The translations under genes were made by a program, and so were the position numbers. A stretch of DNA of 64,000 nt from Bradyrhizobium sp. CCGB01. GTDB lineage: Bacteria > Pseudomonadota > Alphaproteobacteria > Rhizobiales > Xanthobacteraceae. Below the pieces are notes generated by a model, which saw nothing but the letters and a program-made list of their open reading frames with translations, was not told where the DNA came from and did no database searches. Where the stretch lies: the NCBI RefSeq assembly GCF_024199795.1, contig NZ_JANADK010000001.1, positions 7,812,001 through 7,876,000 of the forward strand. The letters run 5' to 3'. Positions 4,145 through 51,014 of this stretch are shown piece by piece (positions within the stretch are counted from its first letter, which is position 1; each line of letters opens with the position of its first letter).

Positions 4145-5629
4145 TCAGGCCACCGCTACGGAACGGGACTGTTCTGTCAGTTCCGCCCACACGCGAAAGC
4201 GCGCGCCTTCATTGTGAGGCACAATATGGAACGGCTGGCCGAAGATTGCGAGCGGCTCCTTGGCCGACTCGAACCGCGGCCAGGCTTCCGCGACGTCGGG
4301 CGTACCGGTCGTGACGAAGCGCAGCACACCCGCCTGAAACCGCGCCGCCACGTCGATGTCGGCGGGCGTCATCGGTCCGCCCTTACGCTTGAGGATCGGA
4401 CGGTCGATGAAATCAGGCAGGTGCGCCCACAGGCACGCGTTGTCCGCGCCATGGGTCGGTCCCTGCGACAGGAACGGCTCCAGCGCCGGACGATGGTCGA
4501 ACCGGCTCAGCCACGCCGCGCCGCCCGCCGCAGCATGCAGCCGCGCGAGATCGGCCATCGGGCGATGCCAGAACGCATCCGAGAGCAGCGCCTCGTACGG
4601 ATCCTCGTCGAGACGCGCGGTGGCACGGTAGTAGGACAGCAGGCGGCACCAGCCGACATCGCCAAACGCCGCGCGCACCTGCCGCTCGGTGGTGCGGATC
4701 ATCGCGGCCGGTGGCGTGCTCTTCAGGAACATCACCATCTCGTCGCGGCAGGAGCCGAGCCAGAGCGGAATGTCGCGCAAGGTCCCGTCGGCAAAGACAT
4801 CGCGCGGCTCGCGCGGGATCACCGTGCCGTCGAGCACGGGACCGAACACGGTACCCTGCTCCGTCTCGTCCGCGAGCCTGCGGCCGACGCGCTCTATCCC
4901 GGCGAAGAGTTTTGGCAGCGGCATGGACGCAATCGCGGCTGGATCGCGCGCCAGATCGAGCTCGTCGAGCACGCGGCGCGCGACGTCGTCGGCATGATCG
5001 GCGCTCATGATGTTGCGCCCGGGCGCACTGAGCGCGAGGGCGCGGATGAACTTGCCTCGAGCTTGCGGCAGGGTGGCAAGCGCAATCACGATCGAAGCAC
5101 CGGCGGACTGACCGGACAACGTGATCGCATCCGGATCGCCGCCGAAATTGGCGATGTTGGCGCGCACCCAGTCGAGCGCGGCAAGCGCGTCCAACATGGC
5201 GAGGTTGTTGGCCTCCTCAAAGCCGTGGCGATGCAGTTGCAGGAAGCCGAGCGGCCCGAGCCTGTAGTTGATGGTGACGATCACGGCCGGACCGTGCGCG
5301 GCGAGGAAGGAGCCGTCGTAATCGGCGCCGCCGCCGGTGACGAAGGCGCCGCCATGGATGAAGAACTTAACCGGCAGCGGGCGATCGGCCGCTGCCGGCG
5401 ACCAGATGTTCAGGCTAAGACAGGTCGCCTCGTCCGCATCGAGATGGCCGGGCTGCGGCGCGAACGCGCCGTAGTCCGTGCATTGCCGCGGCTCCGTCCA
5501 CGCGCGGGGCGGCACCGGCTTGGCAAAGCGCCGCGCAGTTGCGAACGGCACGCCCTTGAACGCAAGTACTCCGTTCTGCTCGGCGCCGAGAACCGGCCCG
5601 CTCGTGGTCGGAACTGGATTCGTCAACAT
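4145..5629 (-). CDS. Cytoplasmic type-B carboxylesterase
   Basis: I chose the ATG at 5629 (AGAGGTGA ribosome site 8 nt upstream; 20 bp after the MFS stop) rather than the longer reading frame to 5677, giving 494 aa. It starts MLTNPVPTTSGPVLGAEQ and has no signal peptide. Family hallmarks are the SLNIWSP segment, the HGGAF oxyanion hole (about 92-96) and nucleophile GQSAGA with Ser175. It lies 24 bp upstream of the exported esterase and directly downstream of the MFS gene in one apparent operon. A simple reading is one esterase outside, one importer and one esterase inside. The substrate is unknown. Confidence 0.9.
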   Translation of the reverse strand: MLTNPVPTTSGPVLGAEQNGVLAFKGVPFATARRFAKPVPPRAWTEPRQCTDYGAFAPQPGHLDADEATCLSLNIWSPAAADRPLPVKFFIHGGAFVTGGGADYDGSFLAAHGPAVIVTINYRLGPLGFLQLHRHGFEEANNLAMLDALAALDWVRANIANFGGDPDAITLSGQSAGASIVIALATLPQARGKFIRALALSAPGRNIMSADHADDVARRVLDELDLARDPAAIASMPLPKLFAGIERVGRRLADETEQGTVFGPVLDGTVIPREPRDVFADGTLRDIPLWLGSCRDEMVMFLKSTPPAAMIRTTERQVRAAFGDVGWCRLLSYYRATARLDEDPYEALLSDAFWHRPMADLARLHAAAGGAAWLSRFDHRPALEPFLSQGPTHGADNACLWAHLPDFIDRPILKRKGGPMTPADIDVAARFQAGVLRFVTTGTPDVAEAWPRFESAKEPLAIFGQPFHIVPHNEGARFRVWAELTEQSRSVAVA

Positions 5630-35789: not shown

Positions 35790-36209
35790 TCAGGCAGCCT
35801 CGAATGGAATCTCGGTGGTGGCGCCGGCGAGACCGGCCAGGATGGCGTCCTCCACCGGAAACAGCGCCCGGATCCGCTTGAGCGCCTCGAAATAACGTGT
35901 CGTTCCGACCAGCTCGTGGATCGCGGCGAGCCCGTCGAGCATCTCGCGGCTCTCGCAAACCGCGAGCAGGGACGCATGATGCTCGCCATAGAGCGCCGCT
36001 GCCGCGCCGATATCCGTCGGGTTCATCAGCATGAGCTGGACGATGAAGTAGAGCTGCCGCATCGCCGTGGTGGCGTCGGAAGCCTGCATGACCTGCCCTT
36101 CGAGCAGGAACATCACGTCGTTGACGAGCTCGACGGAGACCTTGCGGTCCACGCGCAGCACCGCGCCGTTAATGTAAATGCGTTCGCCCGCCCGCAAGGA
36201 TACTTTCAT
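35790..36209 (-). CDS. flbT: Flagellin post-transcriptional regulator FlbT
   Basis: Starts at ATG 36209, sharing one base with the flaF stop (TAATG); 139 aa. Typical blocks are MKVSLRAGERIYINGAVLRV, VMFLLEGQVMQASDATTAMR and QLYFIVQLMLMNP. In Caulobacter FlbT binds the 5' untranslated region of flagellin mRNA and lowers its stability when hook assembly is incomplete; in Brucella it acts positively. Here it is the natural candidate to bind the structured flagellin leaders at 48445-50925. Confidence 0.95.
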   Translation of the reverse strand: MKVSLRAGERIYINGAVLRVDRKVSVELVNDVMFLLEGQVMQASDATTAMRQLYFIVQLMLMNPTDIGAAAALYGEHHASLLAVCESREMLDGLAAIHELVGTTRYFEALKRIRALFPVEDAILAGLAGATTEIPFEAA

Positions 36210-36553
36210 TAAAGCGCGTCTCGGATCATGCGGTTGATTTCGATGAGCTGCATCACGTCGTTCGACCTCTCCTCGCGCAGGCGGTCGGCTTCCTTGACGA
36301 CCCACAAGCCGATCGAGATGATGTCGGCGCGCAGCTTCTCGGGGAGGCCGTTCTCCGGATGCGCCAGATCCTCGATGAAGATCGTCCACAGCCGCCGCAC
36401 ATAGAGCAGGCTCTCGACCTGGTCCTCGCGGCTGAAGCGCCCTCCCTGGAGCCGCTCGAGCCGGTCGATGCCGAGACTGAGCGCCTGCCGCTCGCGGCCC
36501 CGCGCCTCATAGCCGCTATCGTCGACGACCGCTCCATAGGCTTCAAACGTCAT
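36209..36553 (-). CDS. flaF: Flagellar biosynthesis regulator FlaF
   Basis: Starts at ATG 36553; 114 aa. The N-terminal ALSLGIDRLERLQGG and central LWTIFIEDLAHPENGLPEKL then ISIGLWVVKEADRLREERS match FlaF. FlaF works opposite or together with FlbT to permit flagellin translation and secretion in alphaproteobacteria and may act as a flagellin chaperone. It overlaps flbT by one base. Confidence 0.93.
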   Translation of the reverse strand: MTFEAYGAVVDDSGYEARGRERQALSLGIDRLERLQGGRFSREDQVESLLYVRRLWTIFIEDLAHPENGLPEKLRADIISIGLWVVKEADRLREERSNDVMQLIEINRMIRDAL

Positions 36554-47535: not shown

Positions 47536-48444
47536 TTACTTGAACAGCGACAGGATGCTCTGGCTGTTCTGGTTGGCGATCGAGAGCGCCTGCACGCCGA
47601 GCTGCTGCTGGGTCTGGAGCGCCTGGAGGCGGGTCGATTCCGCGTTCATGTCGGCGTCGACGAGCTGGCCGACACCGCGATCCACCGAGTCCATCAGAGT
47701 CTTGACGAACTCCGTGTTGGTCGAGATGCGGTTCTTGACCGCGCCGAGATCGGCGGCGGCGGAGGCCACCGAGTTGATGCCAGCGGTGAGCTGCGCGATG
47801 TAGCCATCGAGCGTGGTCATGTCGGCGGTCGAGTCGGTCAGCGCCGAGATGTTGATCGTGTTGATCGACGCTGGGCCGCTCACCTTGTCCAGGATGCCGG
47901 TCTGGGTCGCGGTATAGAGCGAGTAGTTGGCGATCGTCAGGGTGATGGACCCGATCGTGGGCGTGCCGCTGACGCGCGAGAACGACGACACCAGGTTGAA
48001 GGTCGCCGGCGTGGTCGCGGTCGTGCTCAGCCAGTTCACGCCGTTGAAGGTGGCCGCATCGGCGGTGCCCTTCATCTGCTGCTGAATCTGGGTGATGTCG
48101 GCCTGGATCTTGGCGCGGTCGATACCCGCGGTCTTGGCTTCGACCAGCAGCGCCTGGAGCTTGGTCAGGCCACCGGTCTTGTCGCCGACGACAGCGGTCA
48201 GAGCGGTATATTCGGTATCGACGGTCGCAGCCGACAGACCGAGCGAGTCGGAGACGGCGGAGAGCGCGGCGTTGTCGGCGCGCATCGAGGTTGCGATCGA
48301 CCAGTAGGCGGCGTTGTCCGAAGCAGTCGCAACGCGCTGGCCGGTCGAGATCCGGTTCTGCGTCGTCGCGAGCTGCGAGCTGACGCTCCGCAAGGTCTGG
48401 AGCGCGGTCATTGCGGCAGAATTGGTAAGCAGGCTCGAAGCCAT
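47536..48444 (-). CDS. lafA: Lateral flagellin (third in transcription order)
   Basis: Starts at ATG 48444 behind AAAGGGACG; 302 aa, the size of Bradyrhizobium lateral flagellins. The N-terminal MASSLLTNSAAMTALQTLRS, then TQNRISTGQRVATASDNAAY, and the C-terminal LGVQALSIANQNSQSILSLF are the conserved D0/D1 helices that mediate export and polymerisation. The exposed centre is short. It is nearly identical to the flagellin at 48740-49648, differing at scattered residues. Its leader has the shared structured block and an SD/anti-SD pairing with one wobble. Confidence 0.96.
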   Translation of the reverse strand: MASSLLTNSAAMTALQTLRSVSSQLATTQNRISTGQRVATASDNAAYWSIATSMRADNAALSAVSDSLGLSAATVDTEYTALTAVVGDKTGGLTKLQALLVEAKTAGIDRAKIQADITQIQQQMKGTADAATFNGVNWLSTTATTPATFNLVSSFSRVSGTPTIGSITLTIANYSLYTATQTGILDKVSGPASINTINISALTDSTADMTTLDGYIAQLTAGINSVASAAADLGAVKNRISTNTEFVKTLMDSVDRGVGQLVDADMNAESTRLQALQTQQQLGVQALSIANQNSQSILSLFK

Positions 48445-48534
48445 TCTTGACGTCCCTTTGAAACGGATTGAATTTTTGGGGACATACCGGGCTTGCACCG
48501 GTACGGCAGGGCGGCATCATGCCTTTGGGCGGCG
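48445..48534 (-). promoter_or_regulatory. Structured 5' leader of the third flagellin gene
   Basis: Read on the minus strand, this block contains CAAAGGCATGATGCCGCC, then TACCGG-tgcaagc-CCGGTA, then ATGTCCC (plus 48479-48485). The SD-overlapping GGGACGT follows (plus 48450-48456). ATGTCCC can pair with GGGACGT over 7 bp including one G-U pair, masking the ribosome site. The loop is 22 nt. Confidence 0.7.
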
Positions 48535-48680
48535 GAAATGCAGGCCCAACCTGTCGTAGCGCGACACTAGCGCGCGAAGTTTGCGCGAGGCTTGTGTCTC
48601 TGTGACCGAACCGCAACAAGGTGAGCCAGGTCGAGGCACGCAGTGCCACCCGATCGCGGCTATACCGCGACTAGTGCAGG

Positions 48681-48720
48681 CCAAAATGAAAAGGGCCGCG
48701 CTTCGCGAGAAGCGCGGCCC
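48681..48720 (-). terminator. Rho-independent terminator of the second flagellin gene
   Basis: On the minus strand GGGCCGCGCTTC-tcgc-GAAGCGCGGCCC is a perfect 12-bp stem followed by TTTTCATTTTGG, starting 19 bp after the flagellin stop. The same stem and loop follow the first flagellin gene. Confidence 0.9.
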
Positions 48721-48739
48721 CCTCAGATAGTTTCGAGGC

Positions 48740-49648
48740 TTAGCGGAACAGCGACAGGATGCTCTGGCTGTTCTGGTTGGCGATCGAGAGCGCCTGAACG
48801 CCGAGCTGCTGCTGGGTCTGGAGAGCCTGAAGGCGGGTCGATTCCGCGTTCATGTCAGCGTCGACGAGCTGACCGACACCGCGATCCACCGAGTCCATCA
48901 GGGTCTTGACGAACTCCGTGTTGGTCGAGATGCGGTTCTTGACGGCGCCGAGATCGGCGGCGGCGGAGGCCACCGAGTTGATGCCAGCGGTGACCTGCGC
49001 GATGTAGCCATCGAGCGTGGTCATGTCGGCGGTCGAGTCGGTCAGCGCGGAGATGCTGATCGTGTCGATCGAGGCAGCGCCGCTCACCTTGTCCAGGATG
49101 CCGGTCTGGGTCGCCGTGTAGAGCGAGTAGTTGGCGATCGTCAGGGTGATGGAGCCGATCGTCGGCGTGCCGCCGACGCGCGAGAACGACGACACCAGGT
49201 TGAAGGTCGCCGGCGTGGTCGCGGTCGTGCTCAGCCAGTTCACGCCGTTGAAGGTCGCCGCAGCGGCGGTGCCCTTCATCTGCTGCTGGATCTGGGTGAT
49301 GTCGGCCTGGATCTTGGTGCGGTCGATACCGGCGGTCTTGGCTTCGACCAGCAGCGCCTGGAGCTTGGTCAGGCCGCCGGTCTTGTCGCCGACAACCGCC
49401 GTCAGAGCGGTGTATTCGGTATCGACGGTCGCGGCCGACAGACCGAGCGAGTCGGAGACGGCGGAGAGCGCGGCGTTGTCGGCGCGCATCGAGGTCGCGA
49501 TCGACCAGTAGGCGGCGTTGTCCGAAGCAGTCGCAACGCGCTGGCCGGTCGAAATCCGGTTCTGCGTGGTGGCGAGCTGCGAGCTGACGTTGCGGAGGGT
49601 CTGCAGCGCGGTCATTGCAGACGAGTTGGTGAGCAGACTAGAACCCAT
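48740..49648 (-). CDS. lafA: Lateral flagellin (second in transcription order)
   Basis: Starts at ATG 49648 behind AAAGGGACATC; 302 aa. It begins MGSSLLTNSSAMTALQTLRN and ends with the same helix as its neighbour. It is almost identical in protein and DNA to the 47536-48444 copy, so the pair arose by recent duplication or is kept alike by gene conversion. The upstream block of about 50 bp (plus 49779-49829) is also shared with that copy (48571-48619) and may hold the promoter. Confidence 0.96.
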   Translation of the reverse strand: MGSSLLTNSSAMTALQTLRNVSSQLATTQNRISTGQRVATASDNAAYWSIATSMRADNAALSAVSDSLGLSAATVDTEYTALTAVVGDKTGGLTKLQALLVEAKTAGIDRTKIQADITQIQQQMKGTAAAATFNGVNWLSTTATTPATFNLVSSFSRVGGTPTIGSITLTIANYSLYTATQTGILDKVSGAASIDTISISALTDSTADMTTLDGYIAQVTAGINSVASAAADLGAVKNRISTNTEFVKTLMDSVDRGVGQLVDADMNAESTRLQALQTQQQLGVQALSIANQNSQSILSLFR

Positions 49649-49733
49649 TTTGATGTCCCTTTGGAGATTGAATTGAGTTTGGGGACATACCGGGCTTGCA
49701 CCGGTACGACAGGGCGGCGTCATGCCTTTGGGC
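49649..49733 (-). promoter_or_regulatory. Structured 5' leader of the second flagellin gene
   Basis: Minus-strand order: CCAAAGGCATGACGCCGCC, TACCGG-tgcaagc-CCGGTA stem, ATGTCCC (plus 49682-49688), 22-nt loop, GGGACAT (plus 49653-49659) overlapping the SD. The last two are perfectly complementary over 7 bp. The block is nearly identical to that of the third flagellin gene over its core. Confidence 0.72.
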
Positions 49734-49864
49734 TGCGGAAGAGCGGGTTAGGGCCCAACCTGTCGTAACGACCGCGATAGCACTTGAAGCTTGTGCGAGG
49801 CTTGTGGCTCTGTGGCCCGACCGCAACAGAGAGAGCCGATTTATGGCGTGCGCGCGGCGTCACG

Positions 49865-49902
49865 CCAAACGAAAGGGCCGCGCTTCGCGAGAAGCGCGGC
49901 CC
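49865..49902 (-). terminator. Rho-independent terminator of the first flagellin gene
   Basis: On the minus strand GGGCCGCGCTTC-tcgc-GAAGCGCGGCCC followed by TTTCGTTTGG, 19 bp after the flagellin stop. The stem-loop is identical to that after the second gene, although the coding regions of the two genes are more diverged. Confidence 0.88.
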
Positions 49903-49921
49903 CCTCAGAGAGTGTCGAAGC

Positions 49922-50827
49922 TTAGCGGAACAGCGACAGGATGCTCTGGCTGCTGTTGTTGGCGATCGAGAGCGCCTGCACGCCGAGCTGCTGCTGAACC
50001 TGGAGAGCCGCCAGACGGGTTGACTCCTGGTTCATGTCGGCGTCGACGAGCTGGCCGATACCGCGATCAATCGAGTCCATCAGCGACTTCACGAAGTCCG
50101 TGTTGGTCGAGATACGGGTCTTGACCGCACCGAGATCGGCGGCGGCCGAGGCCACCGAGTTGATCGCCGTGGTGACCTGCGCGATGTAGCCATCGAGCGT
50201 GGTCATGTCGGCCGTCGAGTCGGTCAGCGCGGAGATGCTGATCGTGTTGACCGAAGCCGTGCCGCTCACCTTGTCCAGGATACCGGTCTGGGTCGCGGTG
50301 TAGAGCGAGTAGTTGGCAACCGTCAGGCTGATCGAGCCCGTGGTGGGCGTGCTACCGACGCGGGAGTACGACGACACCAGGCTGAAGGTCGCCGGCGTGG
50401 TCGCAGTCGTGCTCAGCCAGTTCACGCCGTTGAAGGTTGCCGCATCCGCGGTGCCCTTCATCTGCTGCTGGATCTGGGTGATGTCGGCCTGGATCTTGGT
50501 GCGGTCGATACCGGCGGTCTTGGCCTGGACCAGCAGGGACTGGAGCTTGGTCAGACCGGAGCTGCTGTCACCGATGACCGAGGTCAGAGCGGTGTATTCG
50601 GTGTCGACGGTCGCGGCCGACAGACCGAGCGAGTCGGAGACCGCGGAGAGCGCGGCGTTGTCGGCGCGCATCGAGGTTGCGATCGACCAGTAGGCGGCGT
50701 TGTCCGAAGCGGTGGCCACGCGCTGGCCGGTCGAGATCCGGTTCTGCGTGGTGGAGAGTTGCGAACTCACAGACCTCAGGGTCTGGAGTGCGGTCATGGC
50801 GGTCGAGTTCGTAAGCAGGCTTGACAT
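49922..50827 (-). CDS. lafA: Lateral flagellin (first in transcription order)
   Basis: Starts at ATG 50827; 301 aa. It opens MSSLLTNSTAMTALQTLRSV and ends LGVQALSIANNSSQSILSLF. It is the most divergent of the three, with changes such as SSSGLTKLQSLLVQAKTAGI and SLVSSYSRVGSTPTTGSISL. It lies downstream of fliP with its own upstream region containing three TAACCAT-type boxes and the strongest SD/anti-SD pairing. It may be the primary filament subunit, or the first one made. Confidence 0.96.
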   Translation of the reverse strand: MSSLLTNSTAMTALQTLRSVSSQLSTTQNRISTGQRVATASDNAAYWSIATSMRADNAALSAVSDSLGLSAATVDTEYTALTSVIGDSSSGLTKLQSLLVQAKTAGIDRTKIQADITQIQQQMKGTADAATFNGVNWLSTTATTPATFSLVSSYSRVGSTPTTGSISLTVANYSLYTATQTGILDKVSGTASVNTISISALTDSTADMTTLDGYIAQVTTAINSVASAAADLGAVKTRISTNTDFVKSLMDSIDRGIGQLVDADMNQESTRLAALQVQQQLGVQALSIANNSSQSILSLFR

Positions 50828-50925
50828 TGCGTATGTCCCTTTGATGTACGCGTTACATTTTCACGAGGGGACATACCGGGCTTTCACCGGTACGGAGGGG
50901 CGGCATCATGCCTTTGGACTGATGT
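50828..50925 (-). promoter_or_regulatory. Structured 5' leader of the first flagellin gene
   Basis: Minus-strand order: CCAAAGGCATGATGCCGCCC, TACCGG-tgaaagc-CCGGTA stem, GTATGTCCC (plus 50868-50876), 28-nt loop, GGGACATAC (plus 50831-50839) overlapping the AAAGGGAC ribosome site. The two 9-mers are perfectly complementary, the strongest SD-masking helix of the three genes. Confidence 0.75.
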
Positions 50926-51014
50926 GGGTGGGGTCCAACCCGCCGTGCCGCATTGCTAGCACGTCGAATCTTGCTTCGAGATTAAGGGCAGCCTGAATTT
51001 CGTAGCAAAATCAT

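Follow-up and report, generated by a model that had tools for sequence, protein, structure and literature searches.

A five-helix leader RNA of lateral flagellin genes in Bradyrhizobium and its co-occurrence with one clade of FlbT

The three lateral flagellin genes of Bradyrhizobium sp. CCGB01, lafA1, lafA2 and lafA3, each have a leader RNA, about 120 nt long, with five helices, the last of which (P5) is the helix with the Shine-Dalgarno (SD) sequence. The genes lie on a stretch of 64,000 nucleotides (contig NZ_JANADK010000001.1, positions 7,812,001 to 7,876,000), hereafter the window, in whose numbering their coordinates are given. The original prediction had described a lone SD-complementary helix in the three leaders. 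This helix is indeed present in all of them, on the minus strand, but the unit to which it belongs is the whole five-helix RNA, in which P1 and P2 covary strongly. The fold from P1 to P4 and the conserved complementarity to the SD have been shown by comparison of leader sequences among relatives. Among the genomes searched, the RNA occurs solely in the window's order, where it tracks one of two clades of FlbT; this distribution suggests that the RNA and clade II FlbT work as a pair.

P1 (ACGACAG/CUGUCGU) closes a three-way junction with the two hairpins that it encloses, P2 (UUGGGC/GCCCAA) and P3 (GGC-AUGAN-GCC). P4 (ACCGG/CCGGU) comes directly after P1 and is followed without a gap by the anti-SD strand AUGUCCC. 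In lafA1 the whole element, including the SD and the start codon, spans 50825..50948 (98 bits with R1, the covariance model of the whole leader element), and the core at 50868-50948 scores 84.8 bits with R3, the model of the P1-P4 core. P1, supported by covariation across relatives, pairs 50940-50946 with 50892-50898 with one C.U mismatch (50892..50946 including P2 and P3), P2 pairs 50933-50938 with 50914-50919, P3 pairs 50910-50912 with 50902-50904 around the loop AUGAU, and P4 pairs 50887-50891 with 50875-50879. The anti-SD strand of P5 is found at 50868-50874 and its SD-side strand, GGGACAU, to which the accessibility prediction applies, at 50833..50839. The lafA2 leader (49645..49768, 107.9 bits with R1) has P1 at 49760-49766 with 49706-49712 (P1-P3 span 49706..49766), P2 at 49753-49758 with 49728-49733, P3 at 49716-49726, P4 at 49701-49705 with 49689-49693, the anti-SD strand at 49682-49688 and the SD-side strand at 49653..49659. 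In the lafA3 leader (48442..48559, 107.8 bits with R1), P1 pairs 48551-48557 with 48503-48509 with one A.C mismatch (P1-P3 span 48503..48557), P2 pairs 48544-48549 with 48525-48530, P3 occupies 48513-48523, P4 pairs 48498-48502 with 48486-48490, and the strands of P5 lie at 48479-48485 (anti-SD) and 48450..48456 (GGGACGU, one G-U pair).

The SD helix amounts to 9 bp in lafA1 (50868-50876 with 50831-50839), where the two outermost pairs draw on bases of P4, and to 7 bp in lafA2 (49682-49688 with 49653-49659) and in lafA3 (48479-48485 with 48450-48456). The flagellin starts are at 50827 (lafA1, 49922..50827, an open reading frame (ORF) with Flagellin_N and Flagellin_C), 49648 (lafA2, 48740..49648, start set by the SD) and 48444 (lafA3, 47536..48444, an ORF), all on the minus strand, and lafA2 and lafA3 are each 89% identical to lafA1. 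Upstream of the ATG, the anti-SD segments are found at a distance of 34-49 nt, slightly less than the 45-60 nt given originally. Since the three genes are paralogues, their helices are not independent evidence. The predicted probability that the SD is unpaired in these leaders is 0.03-0.06, and freeing it would cost a predicted 6.0-7.4 kcal/mol.

For the comparison with relatives, contigs from one genome per species were scanned, and the best 80 of 584 correspond to 78 distinct loci. These loci provided 156 flagellin starts, including those of the window, and a control set of 492 other genes. A loose core pattern is matched by 137 of the 156 flagellin leaders, and the layout is kept well beyond Bradyrhizobium, in Roseibium, Pannonibacter, Hyphomicrobium, Rhizobium, Ensifer, Mesorhizobium, Aminobacter and others. 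RNAalifold predicted 27 of the 28 consensus pairs unaided from 22 leaders (alignment A4, drawn from the 30 hand-chosen leaders of A2; the eight left out were misplaced by MAFFT or near-copies), and 11 of the 28 pairs showed double changes. In 77 leaders fitted to the covariance model, double changes occurred at 20 of 28 pairs, with 274 double-changed cells against a shuffle mean of 75; none of 500 shuffles reached this covariation, and controls with slid partners gave at most 50 cells. The same was observed in 86 cores aligned by sequence only with MAFFT (alignment A8, with 86 of the 104 cores listed, after exclusion of near-copies and of cores with a long P2), where 17 of 21 pairs and 226 cells were double-changed, compared to 79.5 cells in shuffles and at most 100 with slid partners. 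The near-invariant parts are the P3 loop, P4 and the AUGUCCC strand. An alternative pairing of GGCAU (P3) with AUGUC, read by eye, was also considered and set aside; as both strands are near-invariant, covariation cannot probe it.

P5 rests mainly on conserved complementarity among these leaders, and its covariation is thin. At least six contiguous pairs to AUGUCCC (G-U allowed) can be formed in 128 of 156 flagellin leaders and in 28 of 492 other genes; for seven contiguous pairs the counts are 79 and 3, respectively, and the motif GGGACA itself is present in 94 flagellin leaders and two other genes. It follows within 80 nt of the core for 119 of 156 canonical AUGUCCC cores versus one of 50 others, a difference to which lineage contributes. 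The cells of P5 are paired in 92.2% (22 leaders) and 90.3% (77 leaders) of cases. The G-C pair beside the SD purines is retained in 76 of 77 rows; SD function as such does not require this C. Before flagellin genes the SD is predicted to be less accessible than before other genes, both in Bradyrhizobium (accessibility 0.30 versus 0.35, p=0.018) and in the other taxa (0.27 versus 0.39, p=2e-8), with relatedness uncorrected in both comparisons. The interpretation given in the original prediction is partly supported: the enriched complementarity, the near-invariant C and the predicted inaccessibility speak for sequestration of the SD, and its judgement that P5 reflects conservation and not covariation still holds in the wide set of relatives. 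The A of AUGUCCC is 98% conserved yet paired in just 34 of 77 rows, as would be expected if a second partner reads AUGUCCC. True compensation in P5 (UGUUCC/GGAACA) is rare and was seen at L050, L299 and L300. In the chemoreceptor leaders of the last two, UGUUCC is followed by GGAACA and a short ORF; a third such leader, L301, has GGAACU, and in all three the chemoreceptor start lies 249-285 nt downstream.

In the own genome of the window the RNA gives three matches at 98-108 bits, the next best reaching 16.4 bits, and no match was found at the subpolar flagellins. Model R2 (alignment A6, 44 of 79 sources at E 1e-6) detects it in 65 of 249 genomes of the window's order, Hyphomicrobiales, and the core model R3 in 135 of 397. 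Class-wide, the own genome is the sole carrier among 289 in a search with R2 under the stricter filters that apply to covariance searches of more than 40 genomes, with which weak relatives can be missed. At gathering scores, Rfam 15 yields no family in the window and one tRNA, and nothing else, in 11 further loci, and a known riboswitch or any other Rfam 15 family was rejected for lack of a match. A ROSE-type thermometer likewise has no Rfam match in the window. No paper describing this RNA is among the literature matches listed; PMC6429828 makes no mention of flagell or Rhizobi.

The RNA stands mostly before flagellin genes. In the named loci and the window, 139 of 147 matches end at most 20 nt from a flagellin start, and three more are those of the window itself. 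The other five comprise two before what we read as the next flagellin, cut by the contig end, one at 21 nt from the start, and two (L075, L076) before a divergent chemoreceptor gene. At both of these loci the chemoreceptor gene with the RNA, on the minus strand, diverges from a flagellin gene whose own leader gave no match to the RNA models. Among 59 matches listed for 51 selected loci, L075 and L076 included, 45 precede flagellin genes and nine chemoreceptor genes; two stand before PAS-GGDEF-EAL genes, a cheA-like gene and an unnamed small ORF account for one each, and one lies at a locus edge. The nine chemoreceptors were called by translation signature, four of them and the cheA also by Pfam. 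Of 20 further matches listed, six precede chemoreceptors (two of them checked by Pfam) and 14 flagellins (one by eye); loci were chosen partly for lying off flagellin clusters, and among the matches listed the ratio of flagellins to chemoreceptors is not a frequency. Both GGDEF-EAL cases, L151 (genome G249) and L157 (genome G258), are weak, with 30.3 bits each with R2.

The window encodes an FlbT (35790..36209, minus strand; PF07378, 134 bits), assigned to clade II by the tree and the proposed reader of the RNA, next to FlaF (36209..36553, minus strand; PF07309, 106 bits); the two (35790-36553) are about 11 kb from lafA3. The original prediction had linked the leaders to FlbT. This link proves much stronger than the sequence alone could show, as the RNA tracks one FlbT clade, and the role of FlbT here is likely activation. 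FlbT (PF07378) is present in 186 of the 249 genomes; of the 65 that carry the RNA, 64 have it. In a midpoint-rooted tree, 90 FlbT sequences fall into two deep clades with 57 and 33 members (support 0.95 and 1.0). All 25 copies labelled as RNA-linked (same contig, 9-32 kb) belong to clade II. From RNA-bearing genomes, 14 further copies lie on another contig or far away, of which 12 are clade I and two (G169, G222) clade II; an unlabelled copy on another contig (G231) is clade II as well. In genomes without an R2 match, 19 of 20 copies are clade I; the remaining one comes from G246, in which R3 subsequently detected a weak match. The 28 genomes behind the named loci hold 30 copies, 28 in clade II and two in clade I, the latter from genomes with two FlbT. 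For two of the genomes with clade II FlbT (L078, L091), no RNA can be recognised in the flagellin leaders, and in three RNA-bearing metagenome-assembled genomes no FlbT was found.

In the larger set, a clade II query separates the 397 genomes cleanly, with the cut-off placed by eye in the gap from E 1.8e-17 to 1.5e-7. RNA and clade II FlbT occur together in 127 genomes, the RNA alone in eight, clade II FlbT alone in seven and neither in 255 (Fisher p 5e-84, with shared ancestry uncorrected), so that 127 of the 135 RNA-bearing genomes have the matching FlbT. The eight with the RNA alone are seven with E above 1e-4 and G258, whose E-value with R3 is inflated because this model was trained on its match, and for which R2 gave 4.2e-4. 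In G681 a clade II FlbT gene (C4:43322-43687) is interrupted by several stop codons, and a search for the RNA found none; in the congener G173 the FlbT gene is uninterrupted and the RNA is present.

It is proposed with moderate confidence that P5 holds the lafA leader in an off state by default and that clade II FlbT opens it. In this mechanism the leader of the lateral flagellin mRNA would fold so that AUGUCCC pairs with GGGACAU of the SD, and the P5 thus formed would keep ribosomes off. Clade II FlbT would then bind the near-invariant parts (the P3 loop, P4 and the AUGUCCC strand), thereby freeing the SD and turning translation on. As a result, flagellin would be made solely while the lateral flagellar programme, flbT included, is running. 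FlbT itself might be controlled by FlaF or by unsecreted flagellin as in Caulobacter. Activation is favoured because excerpts of PMC8429497 report that LafR activates flbT and that, in B. diazoefficiens, the flbT product induces LafA1 and LafA2 at the level of translation, and because AUGUCCC is conserved beyond the needs of pairing. For Brucella melitensis, FlbT is likewise described as a translational activator in a portion of PMC9812332, where the Caulobacter protein is given as a repressor of flagellins and Che proteins; such Che targets fit the chemotaxis genes found downstream of the RNA. The mechanism of FlbT was called unclear in a section of the 2015 review PMC4347634.

Several observations weigh against this proposal. 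The Caulobacter repression reported in PMC9812332 is opposite in sign. The single-sequence folds of the lafA1 and lafA2 leaders are no better than shuffles (z -0.69 and -0.56; lafA3 is weakly better, z -2.05), the minimum-energy folds of the window leaders show the five-helix consensus in part, and the outer two P5 pairs of lafA3 are predicted at 0.04 and 0.06. Double-changed cells in P5 number zero in 22 leaders and five in 77, and the tests of cognate against shuffled P5 pairing were not significant, with p=0.25 (n=18; 136 of 156 leaders, the remainder being outside the pattern) and p=0.16 (n=50; 206 of 249 rows after removal of duplicates and short ends). Moreover, several non-flagellin leaders are without AUGUCCC or have their start about 75 to 375 nt away. 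The case that was to speak against the SD helix, complementarity gone with the rest kept, does occur, namely in some chemoreceptor, cheA and GGDEF-EAL leaders, although most of these have a more distant start codon. Since the core persists in leaders that lack AUGUCCC or have a distant start, P1-P4 seems to be a module distinct from P5. In G258 the RNA precedes a GGDEF-EAL gene, and neither FlbT nor flagellin was found there. Finally, the match between the RNA and the FlbT clade may reflect no more than joint inheritance within one flagellar system. Targets other than flagellin, located elsewhere in the genome, speak for a reader that can diffuse but do not single out FlbT.

The same co-occurrence figures would be expected if clade II FlbT, alone or with unsecreted flagellin, stabilised P5 and repressed translation until the hook is complete. 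The co-repression by FlbT and FljJ modelled for Caulobacter in a part of PMC7591256 would fit such a repressor site. This seems unlikely, as FlbT is called an inducer or activator for Bradyrhizobium and Brucella (excerpts of PMC8429497, PMC9812332 and PMC4347634) and the Caulobacter case need not transfer to an RNA whose sole carrier among the 289 genomes is that of the window. A three-way junction with a near-invariant P3 loop and P4 is also what a riboswitch might look like, in which P1-P4 would bind a small molecule, e.g., a second messenger, and control access to the SD while FlbT merely co-occurs. The chemoreceptor, cheA and PAS-GGDEF-EAL genes downstream are in line with this, and G258 is the best fact for it. 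The near one-to-one match with the FlbT clade, the top conservation in the hairpin loop, P4 and anti-SD more than in the junction, the lack of a matching Rfam family and the weakness of both GGDEF-EAL cases nevertheless make it rather improbable. A wider version is given a slim chance: P1-P4 would be an unrecognised second-messenger riboswitch across Hyphomicrobiales, with cyclic di-GMP (c-di-GMP) as first candidate and clade II FlbT as protein partner or co-inherited component, and would govern at the translational level how much flagellin, chemoreceptor, CheA and GGDEF-EAL enzyme is made.

The predicted opening cost of the SD would by itself lower translation, and the fold could simply set a constant low translation, the stability of the mRNA or a response to temperature, with no dedicated partner. 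Such a passive leader is improbable: near-invariance of the loop and anti-SD beyond pairing needs and the match with FlbT would not be expected from it, and P5 is a short, unbroken, G-C-rich helix. Binding of CsrA or RsmA was considered as well, since AGGGA, present at the SD, conforms to the ANGGA core motif. None of 64 genomes with the RNA gave a CsrA, compared to three of 14 control genomes, which refutes control by CsrA in these genomes and leaves this explanation virtually no probability. FlbT as a distant CsrA was rejected as well, with hhalign probabilities of 1.7% and 8.7% over 13 columns and a shallow CsrA alignment. By eye, the N-terminal consensus of clade I FlbT (PGExIxIGD ... REKDI) resembles CsrA. 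No PDB relative of FlbT was found at E 0.01, and the one match at E 0.088 is to an unrelated chain.

One of the closest known systems is the fljK leader of Caulobacter crescentus, on which FlbT reportedly acts (the work of Anderson and Gober in 2000). In both cases a protein of the FlbT family acts, or would act, post-transcriptionally on the 5' leader of a flagellin mRNA; in Caulobacter, however, FlbT represses, and class-wide the RNA was seen in the window's own genome alone. The c-di-GMP riboswitches control flagellin, chemoreceptor and GGDEF/EAL genes. Their architecture differs from that of the lafA leader RNA, which has no Rfam match and, unlike them, co-occurs with FlbT. The flg-Rhizobiales RNA (RF01736, Weinberg 2010) is likewise a structured Rhizobiales RNA near flagellar genes, with three stem-loops according to an excerpt of PMC3765529. 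Searched with its covariance model, the lafA leaders give nothing even at E 5. In the own genome this motif occupies positions 4291-4435 of locus L013 (C1:6368291-6368435), immediately upstream of flgF in the other flagellar cluster and 1.5 Mb from the lafA leaders, and each of 25 same-genus genomes searched (25/25) has one match. The lafA leader is thus a different RNA at a different place. In the CsrA-FliW system of Campylobacter and Bacillus a protein also acts on flagellin mRNA in step with assembly, and a passage of PMC4894983 considers that FlaF/FlbT might be an analogous system; the 64 RNA-bearing genomes, in contrast, yielded no CsrA, and FlbT is without profile similarity to it.

With FlbT reported as a repressor in Caulobacter and as an activator in Brucella and Bradyrhizobium, the RNA gives it a concrete, testable substrate, and the pairing of RNA and clade would be a possible reason for the opposite signs, if the signs follow the clades. 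The covariance model lets likely targets, chemoreceptors included, be listed in rhizobia and their relatives.

Upstream of P1 conservation is weak, with a slight AA at -26/-25 from P1; the main text of the Bradyrhizobium transcription start site paper PMC4842269 contains no mention of flagell or lafA. A leader peptide or upstream ORF was rejected, since the frame between the two conserved AUGs is not kept outside Bradyrhizobium: a single frame is found in 66 of 66 Bradyrhizobium-type leaders, and the 76 others are spread over the frames as 29, 28 and 19. The longest ORF of lafA2 (48740-49723, minus strand) begins at the conserved AUG of the P3 hairpin (49723), in the frame of the flagellin, and the lafA2 start in automatic annotation may sit 25 codons too far upstream. 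At an Aminobacter locus (L086), there are six consecutive flagellin genes, and the RNA precedes five of these.

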